From Tubulanus polymorphus (taxonomy: Eukaryota > Nemertea > Palaeonemertea > Tubulaniformes > Tubulanidae), in contig NC_134036.1 in assembly GCF_964204645.1 (NCBI RefSeq), forward strand, positions 2,779,501 to 2,843,500: a stretch of 64,000 bases of DNA, given 5' to 3'. The notes beneath the pieces were generated by a model. It was not told the origin of the DNA and made no database searches. It saw only the letters and a program-made list of their open reading frames with translations. Every line of letters starts with the position of its first letter. The first letter of the stretch is position 1. Shown piece after piece: positions 2,840 to 54,264 of this stretch. A program made the position numbers and the translations under genes.

Positions 2840-2865
2840 TGTATGTTTGGTGATACATTTAGTGG

Positions 2866-3093: not shown

Positions 3094-3429
3094 TGTTTCT
3101 ATAAATATGTATCTATAAATAGTGACAGAATGTACATTTTATATCACAAGTCGTTTAAAAATATGAGAGAATATTTTTTTAATGTATTAACATCTTCGGG
3201 GACTGAGGAAACACTTAACAAAATGTCACTTTACACGTATATACTTGCACTCACACATTTGGAATGTACAAAAGGAGAGATATGTTGTAACGTTTTGACA
3301 ATTATTGGCAATGAATAATAAGGACAAATTATGGTATTATATTATAAGGAGTGAGCAAATGCGCTTTGGTTGCTGGTGAAAATTTAGATTTCAAAATAAA
3401 ATACCACAATTAATTCAATTGCTTGGACA

Positions 3430-3640
3430 GTGACAGGATTTAGATTGACTGGACTCGGTTATCTCTGGATCCGGTTCTATACATGTTGGCTTTATTCAGC
3501 TCTGAATCTAGTTACGCGGTTGTGTGGGTTAAATTTGACTCTGGATCCAATTCTACAGTTGTGTGGTTTAATTTTAATCAAGATCCAGTTTCGTAGTCAT
3601 GTCAGTTTAATTTGACTCTAAATCCAGGTCTTCAGTTTTA
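3430..3640 (+). repeat. Copies of a 39-bp dispersed satellite unit
   Basis: Degenerate tandem units built on TTTGACTCTGGATCCAGTT and TGTGTGGTTTAATTT. The same unit forms arrays at 37225-37545, 37860-38170 and 48180-48450. Confidence 0.7.
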
Positions 3641-3857
3641 GATGAGGGATCAACATTTTTTTTTTACTTTTTTGACAACACCGTTTTGACTTAAAAAAGT
3701 TTCCTTCTGATAATATTTTGAAACCTAATTCACCACCAGGTGCAAGCTATGTATATAAACAACACATGGCACAGCCACGGATAAATATGCACCTATTGCA
3801 TTATGTCAGGCCATCAGAAAAATTTAACCACCATACTATACAACATAATTGATTATG

Positions 3858-3896
3858 CTAATAATAATAATAATAATAATAATAATGATAATAACA
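3858..3896 (+). repeat. (AAT)n microsatellite
   Basis: About nine AAT units followed by imperfect ones. Confidence 0.85.
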
Positions 3897-4771
3897 ATAT
3901 CAATTTTTCCTATAAGATAGAAAATAAATCAATAACTAACAAATTCACTGTTTATCAATTAACACGTAATAATTAATAACCGATTATTACTAAACTAATT
4001 AAAATGGACGATATGACGCATATATAACGTAATCATATATTCTGAATTGTAATATTTGTAATATTTACAGTATAAAACACTACGCAAAAACGACTTTAAC
4101 ACGGTAATACATTGTAATAATACACTGTAATGCATACACGTCTATACACTAAATGTGTAAACATATCCCAATGCAACATTCGAAAAATGAAAATGAACTC
4201 ATGAGTTTCTTTTTTCGAAATACATTCAACCATTGAAGTTTCATTTCTCCATTCATTCTTTAAACAATATCAAACATGTATCAAAGTGGTGCAAATTTAT
4301 ACAATTTCCTGACAGCCAATAAGAAACCTCCATATTCGAAACTGACCAATAGAAATTCACGCATTTCAATCAGCACGAAATAAACAATTTCGTCTCGCTG
4401 TTCAGAAAAATCAAAAAATTTCGCAAAAAGAATTCGAGTTTCAGGCACGGAACGGAGGAAGCAAAAGTGTAAATCAATCTTCGATATTCAGAAAGGAACG
4501 TCGAGCAAAAGATGAAAATTCAGTTCTCGGATGAGTTGAACATCATGACTACGCTTAACCCGCAAAAGAAACTGATGCACCGTCAGAAACCAGTGGTTTA
4601 GAGTCTCTTCATTGTTTAACTCAAATAAACTTTCACCGTTCGCAATCTTGTTTTTACATAACAGTTTCCATTGTTGTACTAATATACAAACTACATTGAG
4701 CTTAGCAACATTTGTGCAGCCAATAGGAAGCGGCCAGTTCAGCGAGCGACCAATGAACGATTGTTTGTCTG

Positions 4772-4777
4772 TTTATT
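4772..4777 (-). promoter_or_regulatory. Possible PRUNE2 polyadenylation signal
   Basis: AATAAA on the minus strand, 9 nt after the PRUNE2 stop codon. It is unusually close to the stop but is the nearest canonical hexamer; I saw no other clear AATAAA on this strand in the next several hundred bases. Confidence 0.4.
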
Positions 4778-4785
4778 TAGGGGGG

Positions 4786-4945
4786 TTAAAAACGAGTTTC
4801 GTTGAGGTCGCCGCCGCTCTGTTCGGGAATTTCCGGCAGATTTTTCTGTTGTTGGAAACGTTTTTTCAACGATCGAAGTCGTTGATGTTTTTTTTCATCG
4901 CGCTGACGTTTCAGCTCGAGTTTCTTCACGTAGAAAACGTCGTCG
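4786..4945 (-). CDS. PRUNE2: PRUNE2 terminal coding exon
   Basis: 160 nt, with acceptor TTGTATTTCAG and stop TAA at 4788-4786. It encodes a Lys/Arg/Gln-rich tail ([10 protein letters not shown]) that lines up with the K-F-K-K-R-Q-K-R tail of BNIP2 proteins, then runs on to about 52 residues. An AATAAA (4777-4772) lies only 9 nt past the stop, so either the 3' UTR is very short or a more distal site is used. Confidence 0.82.
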
Positions 4946-7900
4946 CTGAAATACAAGAGACGACAAACAATGAGTAAAATTCCAGAACCTGATATAAGGC
5001 TATAAAGAATTGATACCTTGTTTCTCTCATTTCTGCTGAGCTTAAAAGTTGACCAGGCCGTCTATCTACCCTATACATTACCTTATGAAAATCATGATCA
5101 AGCTTACCATAACAGACTCAGCAGTTTTATTGCAGTTAAAAATATGACCTGGCCATTTAGGAGAAACAAGTTATCATTTCTTTGCACCTAACTTTAAGAC
5201 CTTGACAATTTCAATGCATCGTAGCAAATCAAGTCGATTTTGAAATCATACGTAGATTTGAGACGCGTGGAAGCGGCTGCCTCTTCTAGAACATCAATTT
5301 GATGTCATAGGGGGATCTACAGAAGCAGCTCCATTTTAACTGGAAGCATTTTAATCAGCACATCAACATGATGTTCAAAGTGGTTTTATGAATGAAGCAG
5401 CCATCTTTTTTGGTCACCACATTTAGATTTATGAAAGCTGTCATCTTTTCTGGAATGGTGTGGTGTCTATTTGCTGCCGACGATATCATAGGCAGATTAA
5501 TGAAGGCTGCCATGTCTAGAAGAGGGTAGAACAGTGTAGCTGTCATTACCTGTGTTAACTAGGTGAGGTGATTGGCGTGGAATTAGTGGATGATATCGGC
5601 GACGTCCATGGTTTATTTTTATTGCGTAGTTGATCGTACCTTCATTAGAATTAACAACAAATCATTCATGAATTATCGGATATATCGAGATTTAATTATC
5701 TATGGGCTGCATTCGCTGAGGAGTTGGTTAGAGTTAACCAGTTTATAGTTGACATAGTGACAATTAAAAAGTTCGTTGTTACTATGGCATTTATCCGCTG
5801 GTTATCTTTAACCAACTTTTGAGCAACTTTAGCCTTCGAGTATTAATAATAGTAATAATAACAATAATTATGATCATTGTAATATCTATATCATCATTAA
5901 TCAAATTTAGATAATAAAATATATATGATAGGGATAGGAAAATTGATGGGAGCCCGAACAGAGCTTGAAAGGCTGTAAGTGAATTACTATGGATGTTCAG
6001 GAGACGCCTTCGGGTAAAATGTAGTAATAAGTTTTAAGGAAAACTCTGATTGAGATTTGAAAGTAAAACATTGTCTGACGCAAATGTATAAAATTTTGAC
6101 ATGACTGAGTTTTCAATTATAATAACATAACATTTTTTGATTGTATAAAGCAGAGTTGGCGGGGTGGGGTGGGGGTTTAATTGATATGGATTATAGTTTT
6201 AGAGGATGACTCACCTTTGAACTTGTTCAGGTACATATAGATATTCCATGGGAACGATATCGGAGAGATCTTTTAACGAGTATATGTACTTGATTTTTGA
6301 ATAAAACTTTGAGCTGTCGATGAAAGCAAAAAGAAGTGGATTCAAATTAAAGATTTAAGTAGATTAATCATGTTTGCTGTCACCATCTTTCTACATAGTT
6401 GGAAACAGAGCTTTTACATTGTCAGCCATTACTCAAAAATTGAACAATGGCATTGAGAATGAAGTAGAATTTGTTCGTATTGCCAGCACTATTAAAGAAC
6501 TGTGTCATTCCAACTGCCACAGTGAAAATATCAATCAACGAATGATAAGGAGCGGCTACAAGATAACTCGTGGCGGCAATGAGGACAGAACCAGAACTAC
6601 AAGTTAACTTGCAGTGGCAGTGATGGCAGAACTGGAACAATGTAATATTTCCTAGTTAGGAGCAAACTTAACATATAGAATTCTAGATCTACGGTCATTG
6701 TTTTTTACCTGATAAATGGTCGAGTCATTAACGTAACTGTTTTGATCCAGAAAGTCGGATGAACTAATAACAAACTTTTCAAATTCTTCCGTAACCTGCA
6801 AAGTGAGCAAATAATATTTACAGTTAATGTCATGGAAACAGTGCAATGATGATCCTAGACTTTAAGAATATTTTCCGACCCAAAGCTGCATCACAAGAAT
6901 TAATGCTCGATTTTGTTTTGAGTGAGGCATAAACATTCATTGAATCACTGCAATAGTTACCTTCTGTCAATCATCTGATAGCACCTTCGCATCCAACCAA
7001 TCGTTGGCATTTTCGATCGAGGGGTGGAGCCATGGAAGTAGATAATCATGTAGTCATCGGCGACCAACAATTCTAATGTACTTATCACATATCTACAACG
7101 AGATGAAACGAACAACGAAATGAAAATCTGTAACATTCGACGCCCGCTTTCGAAACCGATTCTTAAAACTTACAAGAATAAATTATCCATCACGTAGCGG
7201 TAGTCATGACGACTACGGTCGGGTAGATAACACGACGCGAAAACGACGATCGCGTTCGCACCATTGCCATAGTAACCGCCGTGTGACAATACGCGTTTAT
7301 ACGGTTCGATGACTTTCATGTCGACTTTGTATTTTTTGTCGGCGATAACGACCGTGCGCCAGTGTCGTTCATTCTCCAGTTCCTCCTCGGCGGTGTATTC
7401 GGGTATCGGGGCGACTCCGCCCCCGCCCCCGGGCGTCGTAGGGCTCGACGTTGTCGTGGTTTCGTAGTCTTCCATGTGCGGCGAATCGTCATCGTCATCC
7501 CATTCTAGCTCACCTGCAGAGCGGGAGCGGGGAGAGAGTGAGAGAGAGAGAGAGAGAGAGCAGGGAGATAAGTGACAGAGAGAGACCTAGGTTGGTCTGA
7601 TATCTAAATCGGTGATTTCGAGATTTCTGATATCTAAATTTGAATGATAGATCAACCACAAAATCAAAGAGAGCAGGGAGATGTAGCTCAACCATAAAAT
7701 AAATCCAAATTACCGGTAAAATCATCTCCGTAATCGAGATCGTCTAAATCGGGAGTTTCCAGGTCGTCTGGAGTGGGGATGTCCTCCATCGCGTCGAGCG
7801 TATCAATCGAACTCAAACGTTCTAGACTGCGTTCCTGATCGGCTTCGGTCATCGATGGGAAACGATCGTGCGTGAAATCCATATCGAGATCCGGCATGAT

Positions 7901-10900
7901 TTTCTTCTTCGTCCGAACGTTATTGTTGTTCGTCGTCGTCGGCAACGTGTCTGGACGTGTTGCGGCTGAAAATTTAAGGAAAATACGATATATATCATAA
8001 CGAATCGATATCTGAAGAGCTTTAAAAATTCTAAAAATAGACTGGATTTGCATAATTTATGTGGGAAGATTTGCATAATGCATGGAATCAATTGACTCTT
8101 TTAAAGCAATCTCAAGTTTTTACCAGAGATAAAGGATTTTCAAAGATTCCTTAAATAGACCTGATTTGCATAATTCTTGTGATCAGATTGCATAATTCTG
8201 TTAGCAAGACACTTCAAAGCAAACTCTTAAAACCTTTCAGTACTGCCGTGTAGACGCACTCAAGCGGTATGCCTGTCATTCAAAGCACTGGGATAAAATC
8301 TTCAAAAATCATCAAATTATCTCTAGCACTTCAGGGTATTAATTAATCAGTTAGCACTGAAATTCGACTGTAAGTTTCCTCACCTTTAGGAGTACTTTCC
8401 AGTTCGGCATTGTCGACTTCTGTTACGATGAAATCGCTTGAGTCAAACACACCTTCCTCGCCTTCCATCGAAATCTTCGAACTGTTGATGACGTCTTCGT
8501 TTTCATTCATTTTCATCTGTAATGATAGGAAAATTCAAATGTCAACGCAATGTTAAGACAAAGGCAGAAAGGATGACACCACCCTAACCATCCCAAACTA
8601 CAGTACAGGGATCAGTTGGTTAAAAGTTAATCTGTGGATAGTTGATATAGTGACAATTAAAATTGCATTGTAACCATGGCCCATGGTCTATTTGCCCACC
8701 GGTTAACTCCAACCAACATTTGAGCAACTGGCCCCTGCGCATCTGAACCTAAATTCTCTCATGTTCGCTTCATAACTTATAGGACCAGCTCTTCAAAATT
8801 AGAACCTGATATTATAGGAGTACCTTACCAGTACCTCAGTACAACCAGAATACTTGAAACTACAAGGGACAGCTTCAAAAGCTCATCAAAGTCTACTCAG
8901 AATACTGCTAAGTTGTCAAAAGGGCTGCAAATGTTTTCATTATCAATTCATCATTCATCATTCAACACGGCCCGCAGAGAGTTTATCAAATATTGTCAGT
9001 TGTCTTTTTGGTTCCACATTGCTACACCTAGATACCTCGGGAAAAGATCAGCAGGAGATACATGGAAGCAGCCCCATGCCAATATGGCCAAGAAGGCAAA
9101 GCGATGGACAAACAGTCTACGGAACCAGCGCTTGAGAAGTGATGTATATGTCCAGAGAGATGTAGACACAGAGAGAGCCACCCGTTATTGGTCCAGGCAC
9201 GGACGGCAAAATCTCCCACAATACGTCCAGAGATAGAAAGTCTAATTCATCAATATTTGTCCAGGCATTGCAGTTATAGCATATAGAAATGTTAAGGACA
9301 AGTATTTCTTGGTTCCCAAACTGCGATATCAATGAGCAAGCAGCAAATATCAATTTCCGACACGGTACAATGTAAAACACATATCACCATATCGGAAAAT
9401 GATGCATCAGTTATTTTACTCATAGATAACAAGATCGAAGTTGCTACACAACACAAAACCCACCTTCGATGTTAACAGGGCGTCACAGCATGGAATATCG
9501 TCGCTAATAATCCGACCGCTGTTTGTTACATCAAACAACTGATCATCATCGTCACTGTTGCGTGTATTGTACACTATTACCATAGCGACACAAACTCTCT
9601 CTCCGTAAGCTGAGAGATTCGAGACTAATAACTTTAGTCGTCAGGTGAAACACGCGCTGAATCTAAATCTGGATTTCGTTTCGGAAGAAATTGATGAATC
9701 CGAAATGAAAACTAATCGAAAGGCTGACAATGGAGAGGCACAAATTGTCCAATAATTCCACTTTGAATCACAAAGTTTTTACGAAATGAGTTTAATCATG
9801 GTCTGTGCTTGAGGTTCACAATAAAATCATACACTAACCATACGTTTTTATCTGATGAGATTTAAATCACTAATACCATTGATAAGGTCACTCACTAACT
9901 ACAGTCCAGTATCCAGAGATTAGTTGTGATATTTAGTTCCAAGCGTTATCAGTGAACGTAAATGCTATTACAATACAATAGCTACGATATCCACAATAAT
10001 TCTCACAATTCAACCGATGCTTTGTAAAATATAGATTCCAAACGCAAATTTCTCTCCAGAGCGCAAGTCGATAGCTTGGGCTGTGCATCAATAATGAGAG
10101 GATATTATCATCGGAGCTGGGTGGGGACATGTAGAGAGAGAACTAGTGGATGAGTCATTTTTACCGCCAGCTTACAGGTGAACGTGTGACACACATGTTC
10201 ACAGCAGTGACATGTTACATGTCACAGTGCTTGCCTGCGTTTACTATGAACAGCTGTTTCAATGTTTATAAACTGTCCTGAGTGTCATTCATATAACAGC
10301 AACACTACAGCGTCTCATTGAGTGGATCGTTCAAATACTGATTCAGTGGTTTTTGATTGCACACTTTCAATTCAAACAAACAAAAATATTTTCATCGCTA
10401 TTTTCCAATGTACAATTGCAGCTTGACTATGATTGAGTACCGGACATACAAGGACCATATCACAGCATTCTGTCCACAGGGTACTGGGCAGGAGGCCTCA
10501 GTGGCAACTATGAGCTCTCTGTCCATCGGATTCTATCTTCAGGACAGGTGTCCAATGGAGCAGCTCAAAGGGGCAGCTCTATCTATCTATCTGATCCTAC
10601 TGCTGTGCAGAGGAGACCACGGGTGTAGCCATGAGATTCCTATCAGACTCAGAATCATGTAGGATGGAATGAATGAATGAGAGCATCCACAAGCTCCCTG
10701 TTTAATGGATACAGTCTGCTTTGGTTCCAGCTAGTTGGCAAAGACAACAGAAGGCTTTCATGGTTTGAGTATTTGCAAACATTTCCCAAAACAGGAAAAT
10801 GCAGATACTGACCGCATCTTTGTCGGGCTTTTTTAAATTCCGTTCAGCTACAGAAATTAATGAATGCAAGAGGAGTTTATTTAGAAGGCCGACTATTCCC

Positions 10901-13900: not shown

Positions 13901-16900
13901 CATTGATTGTATTACATTATGGCTGCTGAACTAGCAAGGCTTTCAATTCCCCCCCCCCAAAATACTGAAACTTCAGCTTAATTTGTGTGTAATCTTCTAT
14001 TTCTGGTAGGGGCAGCAGATATTTCATAAGGGGTGGCTGATTTTCAGAGAGTTGAACTGTAAAAATGAAAGGGGTGGCCGTCCCTCTAAAACCTGAACTA
14101 ATCTTTTCTTTATCTCTTGATAAAAGATTTCGGTACAAAACAATTATCAGCACTGATAGAATATTGACATGTACTCTGGTAGGGGCAGCAGATTTTCATA
14201 AGGGGTGGCTGATTTCCAGAGGGGTGGATGTAAAAATGAAAGGGGTGGCCGCGCTTCAAAAACATGTTGTGGAGAACAATACTTTGATATTCTAAGTAGA
14301 AAAAATCAGCCGTATTAAATTTTGGCAAAGTAATAATCTATCTTGTTTTACTTGAAGGTCGAAGCATTTAATTGTCGCAAACGAAAGGCACCAACAGCGC
14401 GAAAATCAGTTAACAATAAAAAACGTTTGGACGCGGCTGAAACTTTAGTGAATTTAGCTGATTATTTCCCGAATAATCACAGCACTATTCGTGAACTGCC
14501 GTCTACGTCTGGTTTCGAAGCTGATCGAAAATTAGACAGTAAGTCATTTTTTAAGGATGCGGAGACTCAAACTGAAACTCAGTGCAAATGCCGCGTTGGA
14601 ATCTGCTACAGCGACACATCTTGTCAGACCGCAATTTCATACCCTCCGGTTCATGACGAACTTTCTTTGCAAGTCAAAATCGAACCGTTGGATTCGTGCG
14701 ACGAAATAAACGCATCGGCAGATTGGGAAGAACCGGACAATACGTTGTCGTTGTCGTGGGATACGTTCGTAAAACTTGAGGACGTAAAAAACGAGGTTGA
14801 ATGATATTCTGGTAGCGGACATAAATTTTCAAACCTCAAGTGGACATTTTCAAACCTGTCTAAAGATAATGACTGTCTCTAATAAAACTCTCTTCGGCCA
14901 AGAGTCAATCTACTCTCTTCATCAATCTACTTATTTGTTATACATTTTATTTGTAATTATGATTGATGATGAAATAAATTACATTATATTACAAAGATAA
15001 TACAGTAAATCTTGCCTTAAATATTCATGTCAGGACTTTTGATGAACATGGACAAAAACGATATCATTGTTCTGATTTCCTTACATATTTTTCCTATCCT
15101 AAACTCAGATGTCACTCAGACCAATTTTTCTGGTCTAAGTGTTGTGACTTAGGCGAGGTTAACTGTACTACATATAAGTAGTAGAAATAAATAGATTACG
15201 CATTTAGAACACAATTTAACTGTAGACCTAGGTATAGTTAGTTAGTTAGTCAGTTAGTTGACCTATTGTTAACACCCGAGTCAGATCAGTTAATTCAAAT
15301 ATCATACCAATGACTTTTCCCAGGGCCTACAGTAGTTAGACTTATCTAAACTATTTGTTTACTTTATCTTTTTTTAAATCTCAATGCTGGTCTTTTGGCT
15401 TCCTGGTGAATGATTTTTCTTCATTAAATAGTTTTGGAACAGAGGTTCTGGTGTCTTTAATGCAAAATTCAAGGTGAACTCGGTCAATGTGGTACTGCAT
15501 GCTTAATAATCAGCAGATTGCAGATTATTTTTGAATAATATTCTAATATCTTTTTTTTGGAAAAATAAAAATATCGTACGCAGTACTACTGAAATACGCA
15601 ATGACACTATAGCTAACTTACCTATATTCTACAGGTGCGAAGTCACATACACTTCAGGGGAAAAAACTTCCGAAAATAAATCTTCAATACTATATACACG
15701 CTAAATAATAATCCTGAAATCTCCTTCGGTTTTGGACGGAAACATGAAATGATAATCCCATAAGTAACTAATCCATTTTAAATATAAATCCCTGCGATGT
15801 GAGCAAGAAATAAACTTTTTTGCTATATATCCTATGCGAGTAGTGTTTTGTATTATAGCGATAACAATGTAGACTGAACTAGCATTGCCTTTACCAGGTG
15901 GAATAGGCCATTCATTCAATAGCGTTCTGAAGGGGTGGCAGAATAACTCTACACTTTATATACTATAAATATAGATTTAATATAAATATATTCGTTATTC
16001 GGCGAAAGTAGAAACGTAGCTGGGAAAAAGTTCACGTTTTCGATCGTATGCGTTTCTGCAAGTGTCTATTGACGAAAAAGAAATTTGTCGAGACATAAAT
16101 TCAAAATTCCCGAAACAAGAATTCTTTTATTGCTTTCGTTGTAAATAGAAATATTTAGCGTTCTTTTCATAGAAAGAATGTGGAAACAATTGCGTAACAA
16201 TCCATTCCTGAACTGGCGCTAAAAATATCTCTTAGTTCATAAGTTTGCTTGACAAACAGGAAGGACTAAGTTAGACAAATTAAATATCTGTCAATTATAG
16301 ATGAAATCCAATGAAAGAGAAATTTATTGAAACAAAAAACCACAAAGTTTTGGCTGTTGACTAACAGCCATCATCAGGGCGATTGACCAAAAACAGAATG
16401 TTGATTGAAGTATCTAAACTCATAGTATATTACATAAGCAGTGACTATGGTTCAGAAACTGATATGAAATGTGGTTTCATTTTGAGAAATCTTTTCTCAA
16501 TCATTTAATCCCAGTGTGTGACTTCTCTATACAACTGATAACTTATGATTTTTCAAAATATTTCACTCGATCTTCTTATCTACCTATAACTTGTGGATCG
16601 ACTAGGTTTAAAGACCAGTTTTAAACTTCAATCATAACTCACATGGATGTGAATGAATCAATTTGCAGGGTGTAAATTTTGCAATAAAACAAGTCTGGAA
16701 AAAAGATCCTCTTCCCGGAAAGTTGTAAGACAAAATAGATCTCCATGTGGCAAATCAGTAAATGAAGCCTTTCAAACAAGTGGGTTTAAAGATTGGTTTG
16801 GAAAATAAATTTGCAGGGGGAATCCTGGTCTTTGGAAAAGAAAACAGGTCTGAAACAAATGGGTCCTCTTCGAAGAAGGTTAAGAGAGAGAGAATACAGA

Positions 16901-37900: not shown

Positions 37901-40900
37901 GACATGTTAAAATCGCACGACTTCGGAACTGGACCCAGAGTCACATCAAACCTACACAACTGTGGAAAGGATCCAGAGTCATATTAAATCCACACAACTG
38001 TAGAAATGGGTTCAGAGACAAATCAAACCTACACAACTGTGGAAGTAGATCAAACCTGAAAACAGTGAAACTGGATTCAGAGACAAATTAAACTCACACA
38101 ACTGTAGAAATGGGTTCAGCATCAAATCAAACCTGCACAGCTATGGAACTTGGTACAGAATTAAGCTCATGAACGTAAAACGCTCGAATTCAGAATCTCA
38201 CCCCGTGCTAGGTAAGGAGGGGTGAGTAATAGCTCAACAAATCGAGACGACAGTAGATTACATCGTCTGTTTCCCCGCTTACCCGTTCGTTCGTTATTCA
38301 ACCTTTTGTCACGGACGACGCTTTATTAAACATGAAACAAAAATAGATGCATTAAATGCGAAGGTATTTCAAAGGCGTTCCCATGGCAACAGAACTACTA
38401 CCGGAAAATTGCGATGCCCTCGGCAACCGTACTAATAAATATAGATATATGCATATGTATAGATATATATATGTGTATAAATATTTAAGTTGTAAAGCCT
38501 TTTTTAAATTGATTGTTCCATATTTTATGTTTTTGCGTTAACTGCATTTAGGCTAAAAAATGATACCTTATTTCTCATTTCTGCCGAGTTTAAAAGTTGA
38601 CGCGGCCGGCCGCCTATCTACATGTTACTTTTTTAAAGAAATAACAATCAAGCTAACAATAACAGACAACAGACCCGGTAGTTATAGAAATGAATTGATT
38701 ACAAATTTTATCGCAATTTACAAAAGTGACCTGGCCGATTAAGAGAAACAAGGTATCATTTCTATTAGCCTTGTTGCAGTTTGGTAGAAAAAACTTTGCG
38801 TTATTGGTACATCGAATATTGGGCAGGATAATGTACGTCCACCAATAAAAATGCGCAACCAATAACGGAATGGTAAATGAGAATATTACTGTTATAGTTA
38901 AGTGTTTATTGAGTATGGGGACCATGTAAATACCGCAATGAATAACTAACAGGGCCGTTTACGATGGGAATTAAGAGCTGCGCAATACCAGGTCAAGTGA
39001 TAGATGACACCGCAACGCCATCTTGTGATCGCTTCTCTTCCCTCGAGACTTCAATTCAGGAATGATTTAAAAACGTATGTGAAGAATTAGAAAAAAAACG
39101 AACACTTGAAAATATCAGGAATGAAATATGGAAATATATTGTCTCAGAAAATATGTTGAATGAAATTATAACTTTGGTAACATTGAACTTTGCTCTCTTG
39201 GTCACAGTGCATAGTGAATATTTGGTGAAGCAGGAACTGCATGGAAACAAGCGTGAAATGATGTCAACCTACGTTAAGTGCTATCAGAAACAATTTGTAT
39301 TCAAGAACATATCAACATTGAAATATGAAAGTAAATTCCAAAATATTCCAAAGCTTACAACTCAAAACCTTTCAAGAACTCCCTAGTAATGTTAATGTTT
39401 GCAAATATCAGAAAGAAGCACAAACGCTATCGAATAAACATTTCAAAAAATGTTCAAAACGTTCTGTAACACCTTGAAACACAAGCCAGTAACCAGAATG
39501 TCAGTGCTTACAGGGCTTCAATGGGAACATTGAATATGGAAGAAAATGTCATGTAGGGCCTTGAGTAACACCTTTCCAACAGTTCATGCATGCGAGAATA
39601 GTTATCTCATTCATCAGATGGCTACGAATCAACACAAGAAGAAAATGCTCAAAACATTCAGCAATAGTTTAAAAGACAAGCCAGTAACAAGGATGTCAGC
39701 GCTTTCAGTGTTTTGAATTGGAACATTGAATATGGAAGAAATTGTCAATATGAAAAGTAAATGTGAGCCGCAAGCTTCAGTACGACTGTTCCAACAGTTA
39801 TCTATTTCATTAGCAACGCGCGATTGAAAATCTAGTGGTCCGGGCGCGTCGGGGCGCCGGTCAAATTCTCGCGCAGTAAATGCATTTCGTTCAACGCTTG
39901 AGTCAAAAACGGTCGCACCGTGTTCAACTCCATCAACGTCAAAAAGTTCAACTTGGCGTTCGTCGAGTCGCTTTTCACGAATAAATCGACGCTACTGCGT
40001 AATTTCGACATTCGTAAATCCCAGATATCCTTAACGAGCGTACGCACGTCGTCCGCTCGCGGAATATCGTCGGCGGCAACGTTCAACAATAACTGCGACA
40101 CCTCGACGTAGAATTCGTCGGGCATTTCGGTGAAAAGTTCCGAATCGATCTCCGCCTGTTTCGTCGCTTCTAACGCTTCGACGTTCATCCACGCAGGTGG
40201 CGTTATCCGACATTTTTGGCGCCGTTTCAAATTGACGGCTAGCCACAATGGCACGTCGTCGACGGCGACAGCTGCCGAAAACGGACCGACGTCGCCGCCG
40301 ATCATGTAAAGTTTAGCGAGCGTAAAATTCGGCACGATCGTCACGGCGCGTTTCTCGGCGAAGAATTCGACGTCGGCCGGATCCATATAGTCGTACATTG
40401 TTGTCGTCACCGTGGCCGCGGCGCCCGTCGATAGACCCGCCTAAAACGATACAAACAGAAAAACGACGGATGGTAGAGTGAATGAAACAAAAAAAATACA
40501 ATGTGGTGGAGGTGTGTGGTGCTAGTTGGGGATAGGGTAGGAATGGAGCTGAAGGTACGGCTGTGTTATACTAAAGTTGTGCGGTACGATCTCTAGAGCT
40601 CTGGAGTCGTTCAAGCTATTTAAGTTTACGCGATTTGGACTTCGGGAAGGGAACCTCAGTAGGGTGGCCACTTTCCGCCTGTTCGAATATCCTCCTGAGT
40701 GAATCAGAGAAATTCCTTGATCTTAAATGTTACAATTCATTCATTTCTTACTGAATTATGCACTAATAAAGAACTACATGGTCAATAACATCATTCAATT
40801 CCCCGAGTTTTCCAAGTTCTTGGTAAAATTTGTCAAATTCCCTGAGATTTCGCCCTGATTTTTGTCTAGATTTTTCTGATTCCCATAGTTAACCTGATTT

Positions 40901-43900: not shown

Positions 43901-46072
43901 GTATTCCTTGAGCTAGCGTAGTTCATTCAACATTTCGACTATATTCGACTATATTCTAATAGTCGTCTTTAGGAACACTGAATACGATTAGAATACTGTC
44001 AAAATGTCAAATAAGTTTACTAGCTCAAGGAAGCACTCAGACTTTATATTTTTTTTTCGTTATTATTATGGGATTTTATACATAGGGCCTATATCACAAC
44101 ACAGATAAAGTGTTTGATCAATGGTCATTGAGCTGATATAATATCAACCATCTTGACGTGAAGTCTGTGGATGATCAAAATTTTGAAAGAATGATGAAAA
44201 GAAAATGATATAAGCATCGATCAAATTTTTTGAAGCTAGAAACCAGCGGCGCAAAAACTTATCGCAAATTACAAACTCCATCCGAATTTCTCGTCTAACG
44301 CCGTGGCGAAGATGACAATGACAAACGATGAAATACGTTAATCGAATGAAACATTTTCTCCCGCCGTTGAATTTCAGTTTTTCGCTCGGTTTTTACTCCG
44401 TTAAATTTTCCCGTTACCGGCGACGATGTATACTGTCATCGCCATAGGCGCCGCGAGCGTTTTTGTGTTCGGAACGTTAATTAAACGTTTTCATCTCATC
44501 TCTACAGCGGCGGCGACGGTCTGTTACGCGTGGGAGAATGAGCAACACGCGCAAACGACGTCGTCGTCGTTCCTTAGTCACGTTTCGTTAATTTCGACAA
44601 TTCAGATTTTTTGTACCTTCGCCGAGAGAGAAAAAGTATAGAGAGAAAATGAACTTAATTCGAGCGTAATAGAAACCAATTCTCGTTTTCATGTCTGAGA
44701 GCAATGTGCGGGATTCTTCAGACATTTCGGCTGTTTCTATCGACATTAAATGTCTAATCAAACTATCAACTACTTGGGCGAAGATATTTTACAATCCGGG
44801 GGCTGGTTCCGTTATCCTCCCTAAGAAATAAGACCAGTCCAAGAACATTTCAGTTCAATAGCCAACGTAACAACTCAGGACTAGTCTTAAGATTTAAAAC
44901 CACTTTTGGACTTACCGGGGTATGTCTCCACTGTGGAGCCGGACCCTGGACCCAGTTAACAGTCATGACCTAAGTCCCAAAGTGGTCTTCAATCTTAAGT
45001 CTAGTCTTAAGTTGTTACATTGACTACAGAACTAAGATGGTCTCTAAGATGGTCTAAGACTGGTCTTAAGTTTAAGCCATGACATGCTGTGAATCTGGCT
45101 TCATAGACCAGATTTCAGCTTCCCAGTTGTGAGTCAGAGTTAAAATTGGTTCATTTTAAAACTATTTAACTCCGGACCGTCAACTAACAACTGAGATTTT
45201 GTATCAATGGGTCCACATCTAATTTCTTAGATGATTATTTTATAGCCACAATAGAAAACTACTAATTTGGTTCAGATCGCCGATAATATTTTGTTAACGA
45301 GACGAAAAACATGAATGCAGCTGCCCATGCACCAGCACGCAACAGCTTCGTGTATCGGCAAAGGCTAATGCATCACATATACAATTACAGAGATACGATT
45401 ACTTATAACGATATGATTATGTTACGAGTTGAGTTAAATATTTCCAGAGCGCACGACGCGAAGATAGACATATTTCCGTCAACTGCTGTCACTAATGGCG
45501 ATAAATCCTAACAGACTGTTCGCGTTCACATGGAGGATTCTGACGTCGTCGATCACGCGGCGGTAATTTCAGAAATTTTAAAACGTCGAGTATGTATTCA
45601 TTATTCATCGCGTCGATACCAGTGATAGCACACGTAATAAACACCTTCACAAATTCGATGCCAGAATTATCTTCTTTACCTCCAGGGTCCAGTTCCACAG
45701 TTCCGAGTTGAGATTTAACTCTGAGTGAACTCATTGAAAATGAACTTTAACTCAGAGTTAACTCTAACTCACAACTGTGGAACTGAGTCCAGTATTGGAT
45801 AACGTACAGACAGGCAATTCGAAGAAAGGATGTTCAACTTCATGATAAAGTTAGAGTGAAATATATTGGTTACTCTCATGTTTTTCTTAAAGCTAACTGC
45901 TAAGCATTTTTAACCTGATAACTTCTTGCGAATTTAAGCTAAGATGCAGTGACAAAACATGTTCATCACTTTAATGCGCGAAGATAAAACAAAAATCTTA
46001 GAGTTGTTTCTCTACGATGGGATAAACCTCACTTACCAGAGCGGATTTTGCATTCTTCAGAAACGTTTCCAT
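4786..46072 (-). CDS. PRUNE2: PRUNE2-like gene: Prune DHH/DHHA2 phosphoesterase + giant linker exon + BNIP2/BCH domain, 16 coding exons
   Basis: Coding exons in transcript order: 46072-46037, 34813-34706, 30810-30527, 28611-28502, 27495-27340, 26738-26644, 26566-26408, 25791-25657, 24859-17321, 8516-8384, 7965-7714, 7513-7174, 7092-6961, 6795-6709, 6313-6215, 4945-4786. All introns are GT-AG and the phases match at every junction, giving 9825 nt and 3274 aa. Residues 1-361 form a Prune domain with [17 protein letters not shown] and DHRP metal-binding motifs, then DHHA2. Residues 362-2874 are a disordered linker from one exon. Residues about 3040-3230 are the BCH domain ([27 protein letters not shown]). 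Known family roles: Prune hydrolyses short polyphosphates or cyclic nucleotides, and BCH domains bind small GTPases and their regulators. The full fusion is the vertebrate PRUNE2 layout. The exon model is hand-built; extra small exons near the giant exon cannot be excluded. Confidence 0.9.
5003..5183 (+). mobile_element. MITE, GGCTAA/GATACCTTGTTTCTC family, copy 1
   Basis: Left TGATACCTTGTTTCTC and right GAGAAACAAGTTATCA form terminal inverted repeats. The inner sequence (GTTGACC, CTATCTACCCTATACATTA, ATCATGATCAAGCT) is shared with copies at 12716-12922, 32385-32775 and 38545-38782. Confidence 0.75.
5230..5545 (+). repeat. Degenerate tandem repeat (CAGCCATCTTTT units)
   Basis: Repeated phrases of the type ATGAAGGCTGCCAT, GAAGCAGCCATCTTTT and AACATGATGTCA. 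It is related, in inverse orientation, to the array at 52975-53345 (AAAATGGCTGCCTCCAT). Confidence 0.55.
5719..5832. mobile_element. MITE with AGTTGGTTAGAGTTAACC ends, copy 1
   Basis: AGTTGGTTAGAGTTAACC at the left and GGTTATCTTTAACCAACTT at the right are inverted, with TTGACATAGTGACAATTAAA inside. Copies lie at 8605-8738 and 24898-25024, with a hairpin derivative at 51083-51138. Confidence 0.75.
6215..6313 (-). CDS. PRUNE2: PRUNE2 exon 15: BCH domain end
   Basis: 99 nt, with acceptor TCGACAG and donor GTGAGT. It encodes [11 protein letters not shown] then [13 protein letters not shown], matching the S-S-K-F-S, L-A-E-L and V-P-M-E-Y-V blocks of BNIP2 proteins. Confidence 0.94.
6709..6795 (-). 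CDS. PRUNE2: PRUNE2 exon 14: BCH domain
   Basis: 87 nt. Translated in the spliced phase it gives [19 protein letters not shown] then M-T-R-P-F-I, the most conserved BCH helix. The acceptor is TTTGCAG and the donor GTAAAA. Only the spliced phase gives this peptide. Confidence 0.94.
6961..7092 (-). CDS. PRUNE2: PRUNE2 exon 13: BCH domain core
   Basis: 132 nt, with acceptor GTTGTAG and donor GTAACT. It encodes [18 protein letters not shown] then [12 protein letters not shown], nearly identical to vertebrate BNIP2-family BCH domains. Confidence 0.95.
7174..7513 (-). CDS. PRUNE2: PRUNE2 exon 12: start of BCH domain
   Basis: 340 nt, with acceptor CTCTGCAG and a perfect GTAAGT donor. It encodes L-E-W-D-D-D-D, a Thr/Pro/Gly linker, E-Y-T-A-E-E-E, then [17 protein letters not shown] and Y-R-Y-V-M-D-N-L-F. 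These are the hallmark opening blocks of the BNIP2/PRUNE2 BCH domain. Confidence 0.95.
7530..7562 (+). repeat. (GA)n microsatellite next to PRUNE2 exon 12 acceptor
   Basis: On the coding strand this is a CT run just upstream of CTCTGCAG, so it probably serves as the polypyrimidine tract of exon 12. Confidence 0.8.
7714..7965 (-). CDS. PRUNE2: PRUNE2 exon 11
   Basis: 252 nt, with acceptor TTTTCAG and donor GTAATT. It encodes an Asn run, a basic patch (R-T-K-K-K) and an acidic tail rich in Asp-Leu pairs ([15 protein letters not shown]). The tail is comparable to the acidic region before F-E-W-E-D-D in BNIP2. Confidence 0.87.
8046..8171 (+). promoter_or_regulatory. Cluster of three ATTTGCAT octamers
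   Basis: Perfect octamers at 8046-8053, 8069-8076 and 8164-8171, two followed by AAT, plus one near match at about 8185. ATTTGCAT is the binding site of POU-class factors. Chance copies are possible in AT-rich DNA, but three in 126 bp is unusual. Confidence 0.35.
8224..8365 (+). mobile_element. Degraded piggyBac-like MITE
   Basis: Shares CTTTCAGT, GCGGTATGCC and TTAATTAATCAGTTAGCACT-type phrases with the better element at 47061-47314. The ends are decayed. Confidence 0.55.
8384..8516 (-). CDS. PRUNE2: PRUNE2 exon 10
   Basis: 133 nt, with acceptor ATTACAG and donor GTGAGG. It encodes an acidic stretch starting [14 protein letters not shown] and ending in E-S-T-P-K. It enters in phase 0, so it fits after exon 9 or after the alternative first exon 9464-9583. 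Such acidic sequence precedes the BCH domain in BNIP2 proteins. Confidence 0.85.
8605..8738. mobile_element. MITE with AGTTGGTT ends, copy 2
   Basis: Contains CAGTTGGTTAAAAGTTAATC, TTGATATAGTGACAATTAAA and the right end CCAACATTTGAGCAACTGGC. It lies between PRUNE2 exon 10 and the candidate short-isoform first exon. Confidence 0.75.
9464..9583 (-). CDS. PRUNE2: Candidate alternative first exon for a BNIP2/BNIPL-like short isoform
   Basis: The ATG (9583-9581) opens 40 codons ([14 protein letters not shown] and on to C-C-D-A-L-L-T-S-K), ending at a GTGGGT donor (9463) in phase 0, the phase needed by exon 10. An in-frame TGA lies about 20 codons upstream. The acceptor-like sites between that stop and the ATG would enter in the wrong phase for exon 9, so this looks like a first exon and not an internal one. 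Spliced to exons 10-16 it would encode about 441 aa, in the range of BNIP2-family proteins plus a leader. Short BCH-only products of vertebrate PRUNE2 are known (BMCC1s, BNIPXL). Confidence 0.55.
10207..10225. promoter_or_regulatory. Perfect palindrome with inverted TGACA sites
   Basis: GTGACATGT-T-ACATGTCAC, 9-bp arms. TGACA is the core recognised by TALE homeodomain proteins (Meis/Pknox). It lies about 620 bp upstream of the candidate short-isoform start codon. Function is not shown. Confidence 0.3.
12716..12922 (-). mobile_element. MITE, GATACCTTGTTTCTC family, copy 2 (reverse orientation)
   Basis: Same element as at 5003 in the other orientation: ATGATAGCTTGTTTCTCC at the left and GCGAAACAAGGTACC at the right, with ATACAGGGTAGATAGGCGGC inside. 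It lies about 480 bp upstream of the THAP start codon. Confidence 0.75.
13405..14804 (+). CDS. THAP-domain zinc-finger protein, two exons, nested antisense in PRUNE2 intron 9
   Basis: Exon 1 is 13405-13686 and exon 2 is 14358-14804; the joint is phase 0, with donor GTATGT and acceptor TTGAAG, giving 242 aa. An in-frame TAG at 13363 and the position of the first cysteine support the ATG at 13405. Residues 1-100 form a THAP domain: [33 protein letters not shown] (the C-x2-H ligands) and D-P-I-P-A. THAP domains bind DNA sequence-specifically in the nucleus and many derive from P-element transposases. The C-terminal part (T-A-R-K-S basic patch, E-T-Q-T-E-T-Q, an acidic tail with I-E-P-L-D) has no recognised domain and no transposase core, so it looks like a small host transcription factor. 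The orthologue is not identified. Confidence 0.88.
14015..14250 (+). repeat. Duplicated segment in the THAP intron
   Basis: GGTAGGGGCAGCAGAT, AAGGGGTGGCTGATTT and ATGAAAGGGGTGGCCG occur twice, about 165 bp apart. This is a local duplication with no coding potential. Confidence 0.75.
14881..14886 (+). promoter_or_regulatory. Polyadenylation signal of the THAP gene
   Basis: AATAAA 77 nt after the THAP stop codon on the same strand, a normal distance for a short 3' UTR. Confidence 0.65.
16347..16377 (-). ncRNA. Hammerhead-like remnant
   Basis: The minus strand reads CTGATGA, then a 7-bp hairpin stem (GGCTGTT / AACAGCC) and AAAAC where a hammerhead ribozyme would have GAAAC. CTGATGA-stem-GAAA is the conserved core found in Penelope-like retroelements and satellites. 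The changed G suggests decay. Stem III is not evident. Confidence 0.3.
17081..17255 (+). repeat. Tandem duplication, 81-bp period
   Basis: Two nearly identical units starting GAGTTTTCCAGGTTTTTTTT and a third start at 17243. A diverged relative lies at 40800-40880, so the unit is dispersed. Confidence 0.85.
17321..24859 (-). CDS. PRUNE2: PRUNE2 exon 9: giant 7.5-kb exon, 2513-aa linker with three internal repeat families
   Basis: An uninterrupted 2513 codons between a TTTTTAG acceptor (24860) and a GTAAAG donor (17320), phase 0 at both ends. The first residues (I-A-L-Q-A-F) complete the Prune domain. The rest is Ser-, Asp-, Glu- and Arg-rich and looks disordered, with a few conserved-looking islands: a coiled-coil-like stretch around 23990-23780 (S-E-L-R-E-L-R-E-W to [10 protein letters not shown]) and a basic stretch around 17600-17950. 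Three repeat families stand out: W-x-x-L units at 22144-22969, amphipathic helices at 20850-21890, and S-F-F-S-R-I-like motifs at 18535-19705. Human PRUNE2 also carries most of its length in one very large exon, as I recall. Plus-strand frames across this exon are shadows caused by its CG- and GAC-rich codon use. Confidence 0.93.
24898..25024. mobile_element. MITE with AGTTGGTT ends, copy 3
   Basis: Starts near AAAGTTGCTGAAAAAAGG and ends in TAACCAACTTTTGAGCACTT. It lies about 40 bp upstream of the giant exon acceptor, inside intron 8. Confidence 0.7.
25623..25628 (-). promoter_or_regulatory. Candidate intronic polyadenylation signal (AATAAA)
   Basis: The minus strand reads AATAAA starting 4 nt after the in-frame TGA inside PRUNE2 intron 8. 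It could end a short PRUNE1-like transcript. A single hexamer in AT-rich DNA is weak evidence on its own; the pairing with a poor donor and a nearby stop makes it worth noting. Confidence 0.35.
25633..25791 (-). CDS. PRUNE2: Candidate composite terminal exon for a short PRUNE1-like isoform
   Basis: If the weak GTGAAA donor of exon 8 is ignored, translation continues V-K-T-V-I-S-T and ends at TGA (25635-25633). The product would be about 368 aa and hold the whole DHH/DHHA2 enzyme except its last few residues. An AATAAA follows the stop directly (25628-25623). This is inference from sequence; transcript data would decide it. Confidence 0.4.
   Translation of the reverse strand: MDRALRVDTPGPVLDLTPIRSVPSADFIAYRQGNIAASRKAILPIVKTVIST
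25657..25791 (-). CDS. PRUNE2: PRUNE2 exon 8: end of Prune domain, weak 5' splice site
   Basis: 45 codons. It encodes L-D-L-T-P-I then Y-R-Q-G-N and S-R-K-A-I-L-P-I, matching L-K-L-T-P, Y-L-Q-G-N and S-R-K-K-L-L-P-L of PRUNE1. Cutting at GTGAAA (25656) and joining to exon 9 restores I-A-L-Q-A-F, the counterpart of E-A-L-S-A-Y-F, so this junction is strongly supported although the donor is poor. Without splicing, the frame runs only 7 more codons to a TGA at 25635-25633. Confidence 0.9.
25848..26284. mobile_element. Possible pogo-like element, 437 bp
   Basis: TA-CAGTGGACCCGAAA at the left and TTTCAGGGTCCACTG-TA at the right form inverted ends beside TA. It lies in PRUNE2 intron 7 just upstream of exon 8. 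No transposase frame is visible. Confidence 0.5.
26408..26566 (-). CDS. PRUNE2: PRUNE2 exon 7: DHHA2 domain
   Basis: 53 codons, phase 0 at both ends, with donor GTAGGT. It encodes T-F-L-H-R-S-K-I-D then V-I-L-T-V-A and R-Q-L-A-I-Y, matching the late DHHA2 strands of Prune (R-Q-L-A-I-F). Confidence 0.91.
26644..26738 (-). CDS. PRUNE2: PRUNE2 exon 6: DHHA2 domain
   Basis: 95 nt. It encodes [13 protein letters not shown] and [10 protein letters not shown], matching the GLTTEQMLRKDQK block of Prune; the R-K-D signature of DHHA2 is kept. The acceptor is TTTTCAAG and the donor GTAAGC. Confidence 0.92.
26786..26908 (+). repeat. Tandem repeat, 41-bp period, three copies
   Basis: GATGGAGGTATTGAAAAGGA recurs at 26786, 26827 and 26868 in intron 6... 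upstream of exon 6 (intron 5). Confidence 0.8.
27085..27175 (-). repeat. Possible tRNA-derived SINE head
   Basis: The minus strand carries GGTGGCACAGTGGTTAGAAC, which contains a good pol III A-box (TGGCACAGTGG). No B-box follows; instead there are three short CAGTGTAGCGTT direct repeats. The evidence is weak. Confidence 0.3.
27340..27495 (-). CDS. PRUNE2: PRUNE2 exon 5: start of DHHA2 domain
   Basis: 156 nt, with acceptor TTTCTATAG and donor GTACGT. It encodes T-I-L-V-D-T-I-C-L and R-L-E-D-F-M-P followed by I-F-S-E-I-Q-T-A-K. This aligns with the TIILD and ALFPD segments of Prune that open the DHHA2 domain. Confidence 0.92.
28502..28611 (-). CDS. PRUNE2: PRUNE2 exon 4
   Basis: 110 nt, with acceptor TTTCCAG and donor GTAAAT. 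It encodes the [10 protein letters not shown] helix and ends at G-L-L-H, matching the VGSCATLV to LLHG segment of Prune. The exon is too short to stand out as an open reading frame and was found by homology and phase. Confidence 0.9.
29430..30470 (+). repeat. Minisatellite, 41-bp period, in PRUNE2 intron 3
   Basis: The homogeneous core is about 29985-30345, with at least eight copies of CAGAGACTGTTCTTGGCAAT plus CAGAGGACAGCAAACCATTT. More diverged copies extend on both sides. Because 41 is not a multiple of 3, each copy shifts frame, and the open frames here are artefacts. Confidence 0.92.
30527..30810 (-). CDS. PRUNE2: PRUNE2 exon 3: DHH motifs II-IV
   Basis: 284 nt, entering in phase 0 and leaving in phase 2 at a GTAAGA donor. 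It encodes the RDEIDL motif II, the LVDHH motif III and the EVIDHRP motif IV. The aspartate and histidine metal ligands are intact, so the enzyme core looks functional. Confidence 0.94.
31143..31880 (+). repeat. Pyrimidine-rich dispersed repeat
   Basis: TTTTTCAAGTTATTCG, GAGTTTGAAATCTCAAAT and TTTTATCTCAATTTCCAAGT recur, and the same set appears at 36050-36215. It is non-coding; the plus-strand frames at 31143-31382 are low-complexity. Confidence 0.6.
32385..32775 (+). mobile_element. MITE, GATACCTTGTTTCTC family, expanded copy 3
   Basis: The left end (TGATACCTTGTTTCTC) and right end (AAAGAGGTATCATTTTATCT, then TTAGCC) are as in the other copies. The inner module with CTACCCTGTACATTACTTT is repeated two to three times, making it about twice the normal length. 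Confidence 0.75.
33325..33579. mobile_element. hAT-like MITE
   Basis: CAGGGGCGGATCCAAGGGG at the left and the inverted CTAGATCCGCACCCTG at the right. CAGGGGCGGATC ends are typical of small hAT elements in many animals. An 8-bp target duplication is not clear. Confidence 0.7.
33950..34500 (+). repeat. Degenerate tandem repeat in PRUNE2 intron 2
   Basis: Units built on ACTTCAGAGGACCAGAGAAA and TCTGTTTGTTATAACTGA recur about every 60-70 bp with many indels. Confidence 0.6.
34706..34813 (-). CDS. PRUNE2: PRUNE2 exon 2: DHH motif I
   Basis: 36 codons, phase 0 at both ends, with acceptor TTCTTCAG and donor GTAAGTAA. It contains [15 protein letters not shown], which is motif I of the DHH phosphoesterase superfamily; both aspartates are present. 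Confidence 0.93.
35270..35400. repeat. Dispersed CTTAAG-rich repeat, copy 1
   Basis: GACATGTCTTAAGTTGTAAG, ACTAAGACGGTCTTAGAC and CTTAGCCATGACTG also occur at 44870-45080 (copy 2), with related sequence at 58040-58390. The internal palindromes suggest a decayed MITE family. Confidence 0.6.
35634..35752. mobile_element. Possible pogo/Tigger-like MITE
   Basis: Left ACAATGAAACCCCATAGAAT and right AACGAGGTTCCACTGTA form imperfect inverted ends, with GGTTATAACGAAC inside, a common Tigger-derived phrase. Confidence 0.5.
37225..37545 (+). repeat. 39-bp satellite array, forward
   Basis: About seven units of the type GGACCCAGTTCCACAGTTGT plus GAGGTTTAATTTGTCTCT. An array of the same unit in the opposite orientation starts 300 bp further right. 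Confidence 0.8.
37860..38170 (-). repeat. 39-bp satellite array, inverted
   Basis: Units of ACAACTGTGGAACTGGATTC and AGAGACAAATTAAACTCACA, the reverse complement of the array at 37225. Together they form a large inverted repeat in PRUNE2 intron 1. Confidence 0.8.
38545..38782 (+). mobile_element. MITE, GATACCTTGTTTCTC family, best-preserved copy 4
   Basis: Begins GGCTAAAAAATGATACCTT and ends with the inverted counterpart AAGGTATCATTTCTATTAGC C. The inverted repeats extend about 25 bp or more; the inner sequence matches the other copies. It has no coding capacity. Confidence 0.8.
39370..39760 (+). repeat. Diverged duplication next to GINS2
   Basis: ACAAGCCAGTAACCAGAATG and GGAACATTGAATATGGAAGA each occur twice, about 190 bp apart, just downstream of the GINS2 stop. 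Confidence 0.7.
39832..40398 (-). CDS. GINS2: GINS complex subunit 2 (PSF2), single exon, nested in PRUNE2 intron 1
   Basis: GINS2 is a subunit of the GINS tetramer, which with CDC45 and MCM2-7 forms the replicative helicase in the nucleus. The 188-aa frame is full length for the family (human about 185 aa). Hallmark blocks are present: [57 protein letters not shown] and [19 protein letters not shown] start at ATG 40398; ATG 40386 (M-D-P-A-D-V-E-F) aligns better with the human N-terminus and may be the true start. A stop lies in frame about 20 codons upstream. No intron interrupts it, whereas the human gene has several, and it lies on the same strand inside PRUNE2. It may be a retained retrocopy or simply a gene that lost its introns. 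Confidence 0.96.
   Translation of the reverse strand: MYDYMDPADVEFFAEKRAVTIVPNFTLAKLYMIGGDVGPFSAAVAVDDVPLWLAVNLKRRQKCRITPPAWMNVEALEATKQAEIDSELFTEMPDEFYVEVSQLLLNVAADDIPRADDVRTLVKDIWDLRMSKLRSSVDLFVKSDSTNAKLNFLTLMELNTVRPFLTQALNEMHLLRENLTGAPTRPDH
43540..43960 (-). repeat. 69-bp tandem array with hammerhead-like units
   Basis: Five copies of the palindrome GGAATACTGTATTCC at 43605, 43668, 43737, 43806 and 43893; three successive starts are 63, 69 and 69 bp apart. Each unit also holds TTCGACTATATCCTAATAGT. On the minus strand the unit reads hairpin GGAATA/TATTCC, CTGAAGATGA, stem GACTAT/ATAGTC, GAAAC, which is the order of elements in a hammerhead ribozyme. Confidence 0.85.
44870..45080. repeat. 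Dispersed CTTAAG-rich repeat, copy 2
   Basis: AAGACTGGTCTTAAGTTTAA, GTTGTTACATTGACTAC and ACAGTCATGACCTAAG match the copy at 35270. It lies in PRUNE2 intron 1. Confidence 0.6.
45685..45790. mobile_element. Small hairpin MITE (GGACCCAGTTCCACAGTTGTG ends), copy 1
   Basis: GGGTCCAGTTCCACAGTT at the left and AACTGTGGAACTGAGTCC at the right, with AACTCAGAGTTAACTC inside. It is about 106 bp and almost fully self-complementary. A second copy is at 63060-63169. Confidence 0.75.
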
Positions 46073-54258: not shown

Positions 54259-54264
54259 AGGATG

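Follow-up and report, generated by a model that had tools for sequence, protein, structure and literature searches.

The question raised by this locus is whether one gene of Tubulanus polymorphus can provide the enzyme and the BNIP2-type protein that vertebrates encode separately as well as in fused form, and where, in such a gene, the Prune part comes to its end. In the window, i.e. the whole stretch of 64,000 nt that was analysed, a Prune-BNIP2 gene extends on the minus strand from position 46072 to 4786, with GT-AG introns and consistent phases. Exon borders, splice sites and phases were set manually on the basis of the translations and then checked by joining the exons in silico. We think it probable from the sequence that this is an apparently single-copy fusion gene of the PRUNE2 type in which the end of the product can be switched. 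Exon 8 is most readily taken for an alternative last exon, with exon 7 being joined either to exon 8 (Prune-only product) or to exon 9 (fused product). The gene comprises the following features.

46037–46072, minus strand: exon 1, start codon and 12 residues, GTAAGT donor
34706–34813, minus strand: exon 2, Prune motif I (NEACDLDS), GT-AG, phase 0, aligns with yeast PPX1
30527–30810, minus strand: exon 3, Prune motifs II (DHH) and III (DHR), DHH domain
28502–28611, minus strand: exon 4, from the joined-exon model
27340–27495, minus strand: exon 5, Prune motif IV (LVDT), DHHA2 begins
26644–26738, minus strand: exon 6, DHHA2
26408–26566, minus strand: exon 7, DHHA2, final exon common to the Prune-only and fused forms
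25633–25791, minus strand: exon 8, DHHA2 closing piece with TGA stop at 25635–25633, alternative last exon in the present reading
25623–25628, minus strand: AATAAA, 4 nt past the stop of exon 8
17321–24859, minus strand: exon 9, 7,539 nt (2,513 codons), the first ~54 codons probably a second DHHA2 closing piece and the remainder linker
9464–9583, minus strand: internal ATG exon, 40 codons, donor 8.5, may begin at 9723
8384–8516, minus strand: exon 10, opens with ATG, phase 0
7714–7965, minus strand: exon 11, BNIP2 N-terminal region
7174–7513, minus strand: exon 12, BNIP2 domain, ELEWDDDDD motif, BCH begins
6961–7092, minus strand: exon 13, BCH
6709–6795, minus strand: exon 14, BCH, the BCH signature straddling exons 13 and 14
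6215–6313, minus strand: exon 15, BCH ends
4786–4945, minus strand: exon 16, C-terminal tail and TAA, AATAAA 8 nt beyond (4777–4772)

Three frames were obtained by joining these exons, each of them open with a single terminal stop: a Prune-only frame of 368 aa (exons 1–8), a fused frame of 3,229 aa (exons 1–7 and 9–16) and a BNIP2-type frame of 440 aa (internal ATG exon and exons 10–16). The likelier long form has 15 exons, exon 8 being skipped, and its open, phase-consistent frame predicts a fusion of Prune, the long linker and BCH in a single transcript. Exon 1 lies 11 kb upstream of exon 2; its peptide was the top scorer among the 635 open ATG 12-mers of the minus strand (score 36, the next one 22) when compared with provisional (non-database) letters for the N-termini of human PRUNE1 and PRUNE2. 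Pfam analysis of the Prune part revealed DHH (PF01368; 30.8 bits, cut-off 28.1) and DHHA2 (PF02833; 61.8 bits, cut-off 27), and that of the C-terminal part BNIP2 (84.2 bits, cut-off 27) and CRAL_TRIO_2 (85.8 bits, cut-off 23). As the joined frames were open and the Pfam domains were above their cut-offs, the claim of the first-pass annotation that a full DHH/DHHA2 enzyme, a 7.5-kb linker exon and a BCH domain form a single phase-consistent gene was borne out.

All four motifs of the enzyme (DLDS, DHH, DHR and LVDT) aligned with the sequence of yeast PPX1 (DMDS, DNN, DHH and LIDT), and these we take to be the metal-binding motifs I–IV of Prune/PPX1-type DHH phosphohydrolases. The enzyme is described here as a putative phosphohydrolase with motifs I–IV intact, for which short-chain polyphosphatase/phosphodiesterase activity is predicted. 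The ELEWDDDDD at the start of exon 12 resembles caytaxin's kinesin light chain motif of the W-acidic type. BCH modules of related proteins bind Rho GTPases and their regulators, and by analogy a role as a Rho-binding BCH scaffold is predicted for the present gene. The BCH signature motif, as defined by Gupta et al. 2012 (PMC3313917), was matched at residues 325–340 (16 residues) of the 440-aa form, and binding of caytaxin to kinesin is mentioned in an article on PRUNE2 (PMC3327665).

In exon 8 the TGA at 25635–25633 is followed after 4 nt by AATAAA, which confirmed the in-frame stop with AATAAA right behind the Prune domain that had been pointed out earlier. This layout is like that of exon 16 at the gene end, where AATAAA follows after 8 nt, and on the minus strand 34 of the 3661 stop triplets have AATAAA within 20 nt. 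The sequence behind AATAAA was only mildly GT-rich in both exons (GT content 0.65 for exon 8 and 0.58 for exon 16, strand mean 0.51). With a matrix built from the gene's other acceptors, the acceptor of exon 8 scored 8.0, and the top in-phase donor ahead of its stop (GTGAAA, 25656) scored 1.1, a value that 21.6% of all minus-strand GTs attain or exceed. The 14 donors of the revised model, each left out of the matrix in turn, scored 4.1–10.5. Given a good acceptor and no credible in-phase donor before the stop, exon 8 was judged with high probability to be an alternative last exon. Its codon score was 0.32 per codon, and its inclusion raised the DHHA2 match from 48.0 to 63.9 bits (a gain of 15.9; Pfam) and that with yeast PPX1 (PDB) from 76.0 to 81.1 bits. 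A donor-like site past the stop (25557, score 4.4) suggests that exon 8 might be a stop-bearing cassette rather than a last exon.

The acceptor that opens exon 9 shares its phase with that of exon 8. Judged by protein alignments, the head of exon 9 probably represents the DHHA2 closing piece a second time, in diverged form. The first 48 codons of exon 9 gave a gapless alignment with the matching end of human PRUNE1, and addition of the head (54 codons) to exons 1–7 resulted in a gain of 44 against human PRUNE1, compared with a gain of 59 for exon 8; this comparison, which weighs most for a second closing piece, rests on provisional (non-database) letters of human PRUNE1 and PRUNE2. The gain of 44 was matched by none of 2000 shuffles and none of 480 other segments of exon 9. 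Against the provisional human PRUNE2 letters the gain was 19, which none of 2000 shuffles attained, but seven of the 480 other segments were as good. When exon 8 and the exon 9 head were compared directly, a match anchored at the splice junction was equalled by 17 of 5000 shuffles and by none of the 480 other segments; an unanchored local protein alignment of the two (score 28) was not significant, as 231 of 5000 shuffles reached that score and so did 34 of the 780 open segments that begin with AG, and at the DNA level nothing was found between them beyond a 17-nt gapped match. The Pfam DHHA2 model gave 50.6 bits with the exon 9 head, compared with 48.9–50.0 bits for four control tails, and did not set the head apart from these. 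Yeast PPX1 lent the exon 9 head no support, with 76.1 bits in its presence and 76.0 bits in its absence; the score of the head against PPX1 was attained by 806 of 2000 shuffles.

According to the reading that we favour, splicing to exon 8 and cleavage at its AATAAA would be in competition with the use of exon 9, which lies 932 nt downstream. Use of exon 8 would close the DHHA2 fold and, through the stop and polyadenylation, give a free Prune phosphohydrolase of 368 aa. If exon 8 were skipped, exon 7 would be joined to exon 9, whose first ~54 codons would supply another version of the closing piece for that fold and lead through a linker of ~2,450 residues into the BNIP2/BCH module, making 3,229 aa in total. 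A third, BNIP2-like product of about 400–440 aa may start from an internal promoter. As the linker would tether the enzyme to a BCH module, whose relatives bind Rho GTPases, and to ELEWDDDDD, the long form would place the enzyme on a cytoskeletal scaffold. We infer from this arrangement that both ends are used, that exons 8 and 9 compete, and that the enzyme functions in a free and a tethered state; if both ends are indeed used, there would have been selective grounds for retaining two closing pieces for one fold.

Other readings of the same exons have to be weighed against the end switch. The first-pass annotation had proposed a 16-exon model, in which exon 8 is internal to the long form and is left by the weak GTGAAA donor at 25656, its stop being used only if this donor is missed. 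Joining exon 8 to exon 9 does leave the frame open, as that model supposed, and DHHA2 is closed better by exon 8 than by the head of exon 9, but the donor needed scores 1.1, which is equalled by a fifth of the GTs of the strand (21.6%, see above) and compares with 4.1–10.5 for the 14 model donors, and the Prune closing piece would then probably appear twice in tandem; we regard this model as unlikely. It is likewise improbable that two genes have been read as one, with exon 8 as the end of a Prune gene and the linker-BCH part as a gene that has its own promoter and an unseen first exon before exon 9. Such a separation would agree with the resemblance of exon 8 to a natural gene end and with the initial annotation of human PRUNE2 as two genes, as related in PMC3765211. 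Against it stand the acceptor of exon 9, which is in the phase of exon 7, the probable continuation of the Prune fold by exon 9, and the stop past the exon 9 donor, which has no AATAAA in the ~190 nt checked; furthermore, a merged transcript and a protein of >300 kDa are described for human cells (PMC2655648; PMC3765211).

There is also little probability, in our estimation, that only the full-length form matters, exon 8 being either a duplicate in decay or a cassette with a stop that causes transcript decay, and the ATG exon having arisen by chance. The donor-like site past the exon 8 stop (25557, 4.4) and the ATG exon's codon score, a modest 0.07 per codon, would be in line with this, but exon 8 is intact, has a codon score of 0.32 per codon, adds 15.9 bits to DHHA2 and ends where the fold ends, with a poly(A) signal.

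The internal ATG exon (9583–9464), which had been noticed earlier as a free-standing ATG exon just before the BCH exons, is present with a strong donor (8.5) and opens a frame of 440 aa; its standing as a first exon fared less well. Its modest codon score was compared with those of 40 ATG frames from three introns, of which seven lie inside a nested PSF2 gene (described below) and score 0.35–0.68, and the best of the other 33 scored −0.13, i.e. below the internal ATG exon; the comparison is somewhat flattering, as the same introns had trained the non-coding model. An acceptor-like site at 9723 (score 11.3), 140 nt upstream of the internal ATG, suggests that this exon is not a first exon. A splice from exon 9 to 9723 would run into a stop after three codons; the exon is therefore compatible with a BNIP2-type short transcript or with a long form cut short, and not with an in-frame cassette of the long form. 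The internal ATG exon may thus be taken as a lead to the start of a BNIP2-like product, and it could be spurious. As a separate observation on 9464–9723 (minus strand), splicing of exon 9 to 9723 would yield a Prune-linker product without BCH.

The locus is apparently single-copy in the 268-Mb genome. A query with the gene's own Prune sequence gave seven matches in the assembly, all seven inside the window, and a query with the provisional human PRUNE1 letters gave five, namely four window exons and one match at E = 3 on contig C5, where the flanking open frames were unlike Prune by eye. The BNIP2-type query gave ten matches, eight of them in the window and two on contig C1 (24.3 and 23.3 bits). 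One of the latter adjoins a macro domain (Pfam Macro 53 bits, CRAL_TRIO_2 35.1 bits) and was assigned to a GDAP2-like gene, and the translation of the other reads as ARHGAP1-like by comparison with the 6r3v sequence; the query could therefore see distant BCH relatives, yet no second BNIP2 was detected. Hence no separate Prune or BNIP2 gene elsewhere in the genome, which according to the first-pass annotation would have spoken against its proposal, was found by a search that proceeded exon by exon through an assembly with N gaps and withheld stretches; a family search with PF02833 failed to recover even the gene in the window itself. MINDY, presumably a neighbour of human PRUNE1, was not linked to the Prune-BNIP2 locus, all five MINDY matches being located on contig C11 and the window on contig C12. 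A comparison of the BCH part with viral contigs yielded no relative.

The linker encoded by exon 9 resembled no known family in the searches performed. The whole of exon 9 matched no Pfam family at E <= 0.01, four pieces covering about two thirds of the linker gave only matches far under the cut-off at E <= 10, and a single linker piece gave one chance match in PDB. No alignable similarity to the human PRUNE2 linker (provisional letters) was found, the best local score being 80 compared with a mean of 76 and a maximum of 111 in 30 shuffles. A TPxNSL motif, chosen post hoc, is present at codon 515 of exon 9 as well as in the human PRUNE1 tail and in human PRUNE2 (provisional letters), and its occurrence in both the linker and the PRUNE1 tail hints that the latter is a remnant of the linker.

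Several repeated elements were observed within exon 9. Between codons 630 and 920 (22100–22972, minus strand) there are six W-x-x-L copies at a spacing of 51–62 residues (shuffle mean 0.32, maximum 3), a pattern that reads as a worn repeat array. In the second half of the linker (codons 1720–2110; 18530–19702, minus strand) about nine SSFFSRI-like motifs were recognized by eye, five of them by a strict pattern set after inspection (shuffle mean 0.04). Codons 996–1340 (20840–21874, minus strand) encode amphipathic helices resembling PKA RII-binding helices, with no Pfam support. A PKA RII-binding consensus matched five times in exon 9, always within codons 961–1440 and with two matches overlapping on one helix, and one 10-residue helix of this type falls outside the five matches; the count for codons 961–1440 was equalled by nine of 2000 shuffles, the shuffle mean for the whole of exon 9 being 1.6 and the maximum 7.

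Among known systems, PRUNE2 (BMCC1, BNIP-XL, olfaxin) shares with the present gene an N-terminal Prune part, a very long middle and a C-terminal BNIP2/BCH part, the C-termini being identical at 146 of 258 aligned positions (provisional human letters). In contrast to the present gene with its intact motifs I–IV, human PRUNE2 appears to have lost motifs II–IV, and the linkers of the two are not alignable (provisional human letters in both cases); furthermore, the DHHA2 closing exon of the present gene probably exists in two versions, and the searches of the assembly detected neither PRUNE1 nor BNIP2 as a separate gene. For human PRUNE2 a merged long form has been described, as have an isoform confined to the Prune part and others that start later and carry BCH (PMC2655648), and for mouse and human PRUNE2 several isoforms, each holding the N-terminal or else the C-terminal portion of the long protein, are attributed to alternative splicing and distinct promoters, exon 7a of the mouse gene giving the N-terminal forms their specific C-termini (PMC3327665). 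The long PRUNE2 protein has a size of over 300 kDa and is reported to bind AP-2 (PMC3765211). With PRUNE1 (h-Prune) and yeast PPX1 the present gene has in common DHH, DHHA2 and all four metal-site motifs, and 143 of 359 aligned positions are identical to human PRUNE1 (provisional letters). Human PRUNE1, unlike the Prune part described here, is a separate gene, and it has a tail with TPMNSL, whereas the present Prune-only form would end at the domain and TPxNSL is located in the fused linker. The group-I BCH proteins BNIP2, BNIPL and caytaxin share with it the BNIP2 N-terminal family and the BCH domain with its signature, 154 of 308 aligned positions being identical to human BNIP2 (provisional letters); they differ in that a stand-alone gene of this kind was not found here, and any short form would need an internal promoter.

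It is plausible that the vertebrate genes arose by splitting and duplication of such a single gene, as the fused, single-copy state and the intact active site fit an ancestral gene that was later shared out among vertebrate copies. In the human genome PRUNE1 and BNIPL adjoin each other on chromosome 1. In Drosophila the prune and BNIP2-like genes are separate, so that in flies the fusion would either have been split or have been absent from the start. The vertebrate set for which the first-pass annotation sought an origin (PRUNE1, PRUNE2 and BNIP2/BNIPL) had to be extended by caytaxin (ATCAY), which it had omitted. Tentatively, and with less confidence than the end switch itself, we propose for the ancestral animal a single Prune-BNIP2 locus with two duplicate closing exons, one terminal and one fused, whose copies would have lost different parts after the vertebrate genome duplications: one copy could have been divided into BNIPL and PRUNE1, the latter with the enzyme and a linker stub containing TPxNSL, PRUNE2 would be the copy that is still fused and has lost its active site, and BNIP2 and caytaxin would be copies without the Prune half. 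In favour of a vertebrate origin of this kind are the fused and apparently single-copy locus, the shared TPxNSL (provisional human letters) and the duplications of BNIP-2, the four vertebrate types of which are derived from one invertebrate type and ascribed to two genome duplications in a 2012 study (PMC3313917). The location of MINDY on another contig, the linker that could not be aligned with that of PRUNE2 (provisional letters), and the two group-I genes given for Ciona in the same study (PMC3313917) are against it or neutral. That study ascribes all four BNIP-2 types to zebrafish (PMC3313917), and a study of 2009 states that it found no PRUNE2 homologue in frog, fish and invertebrates (PMC2655648).

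If single-copy and with its enzyme intact, a fused gene of this kind would shift the fusion beyond the vertebrates and would make the succession of one gene, three products and a later sharing out directly testable. It would also combine in one gene an enzyme and a BNIP2 domain that in humans occur separately as well, and would thereby help to explain the source of the human family. No description of an invertebrate Prune-BNIP2 fusion locus was present among the open-literature matches listed. Invertebrate proteins named 'prune homolog 2' are present in annotation databases, and the fusion itself may already be annotated. A neurodevelopmental disorder in humans results from PRUNE1 mutations, and PRUNE2 counts as a cancer gene. 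Caytaxin mutations have been linked to Cayman ataxia (PMC3313917). Three product classes per locus are already documented for mouse and human PRUNE2 (PMC2655648; PMC3327665), and the present contribution is a correction of the role of exon 8 to that of an alternative last exon, the fold probably being closed by either route.

Further features were observed in and around the gene. Intron 1 contains, at 39835–40398 on the minus strand and thus in the orientation of the host gene, a complete intronless PSF2 (GINS2) gene identified by Pfam; being intronless and the sole PSF2 match found in the assembly, it looks nested and possibly retroposed. A 155-aa open frame on the opposite strand (14337–14804, plus strand), in the intron before exon 10, had no Pfam match and by eye resembled the tail of a THAP-type protein. 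Minisatellite-like in-frame repeats were present at 30031–30444 (plus strand), with a 15-residue unit, and at 53913–54281 (minus strand), with GLPTVSMFSGSSR units. Searches of the assembly gave no match for COX1, nor for Chitin_bind_4, mollusc haemocyanin and the annelid erythrocruorin linker, three families for which the control genomes gave no signal either. With a pattern that accepts both TTAGG and TTAGGG units, TTAGGG-type repeats were detected near the starts of contigs C8, C9, C10 and C51, a hint of a TTAGGG telomere and hence of a non-arthropod; taken with a 268-Mb genome in which one Prune and one BNIP2 were found, they speak weakly against an arthropod and a vertebrate. TTAGG arrays were detected inside contigs C3 and C9.
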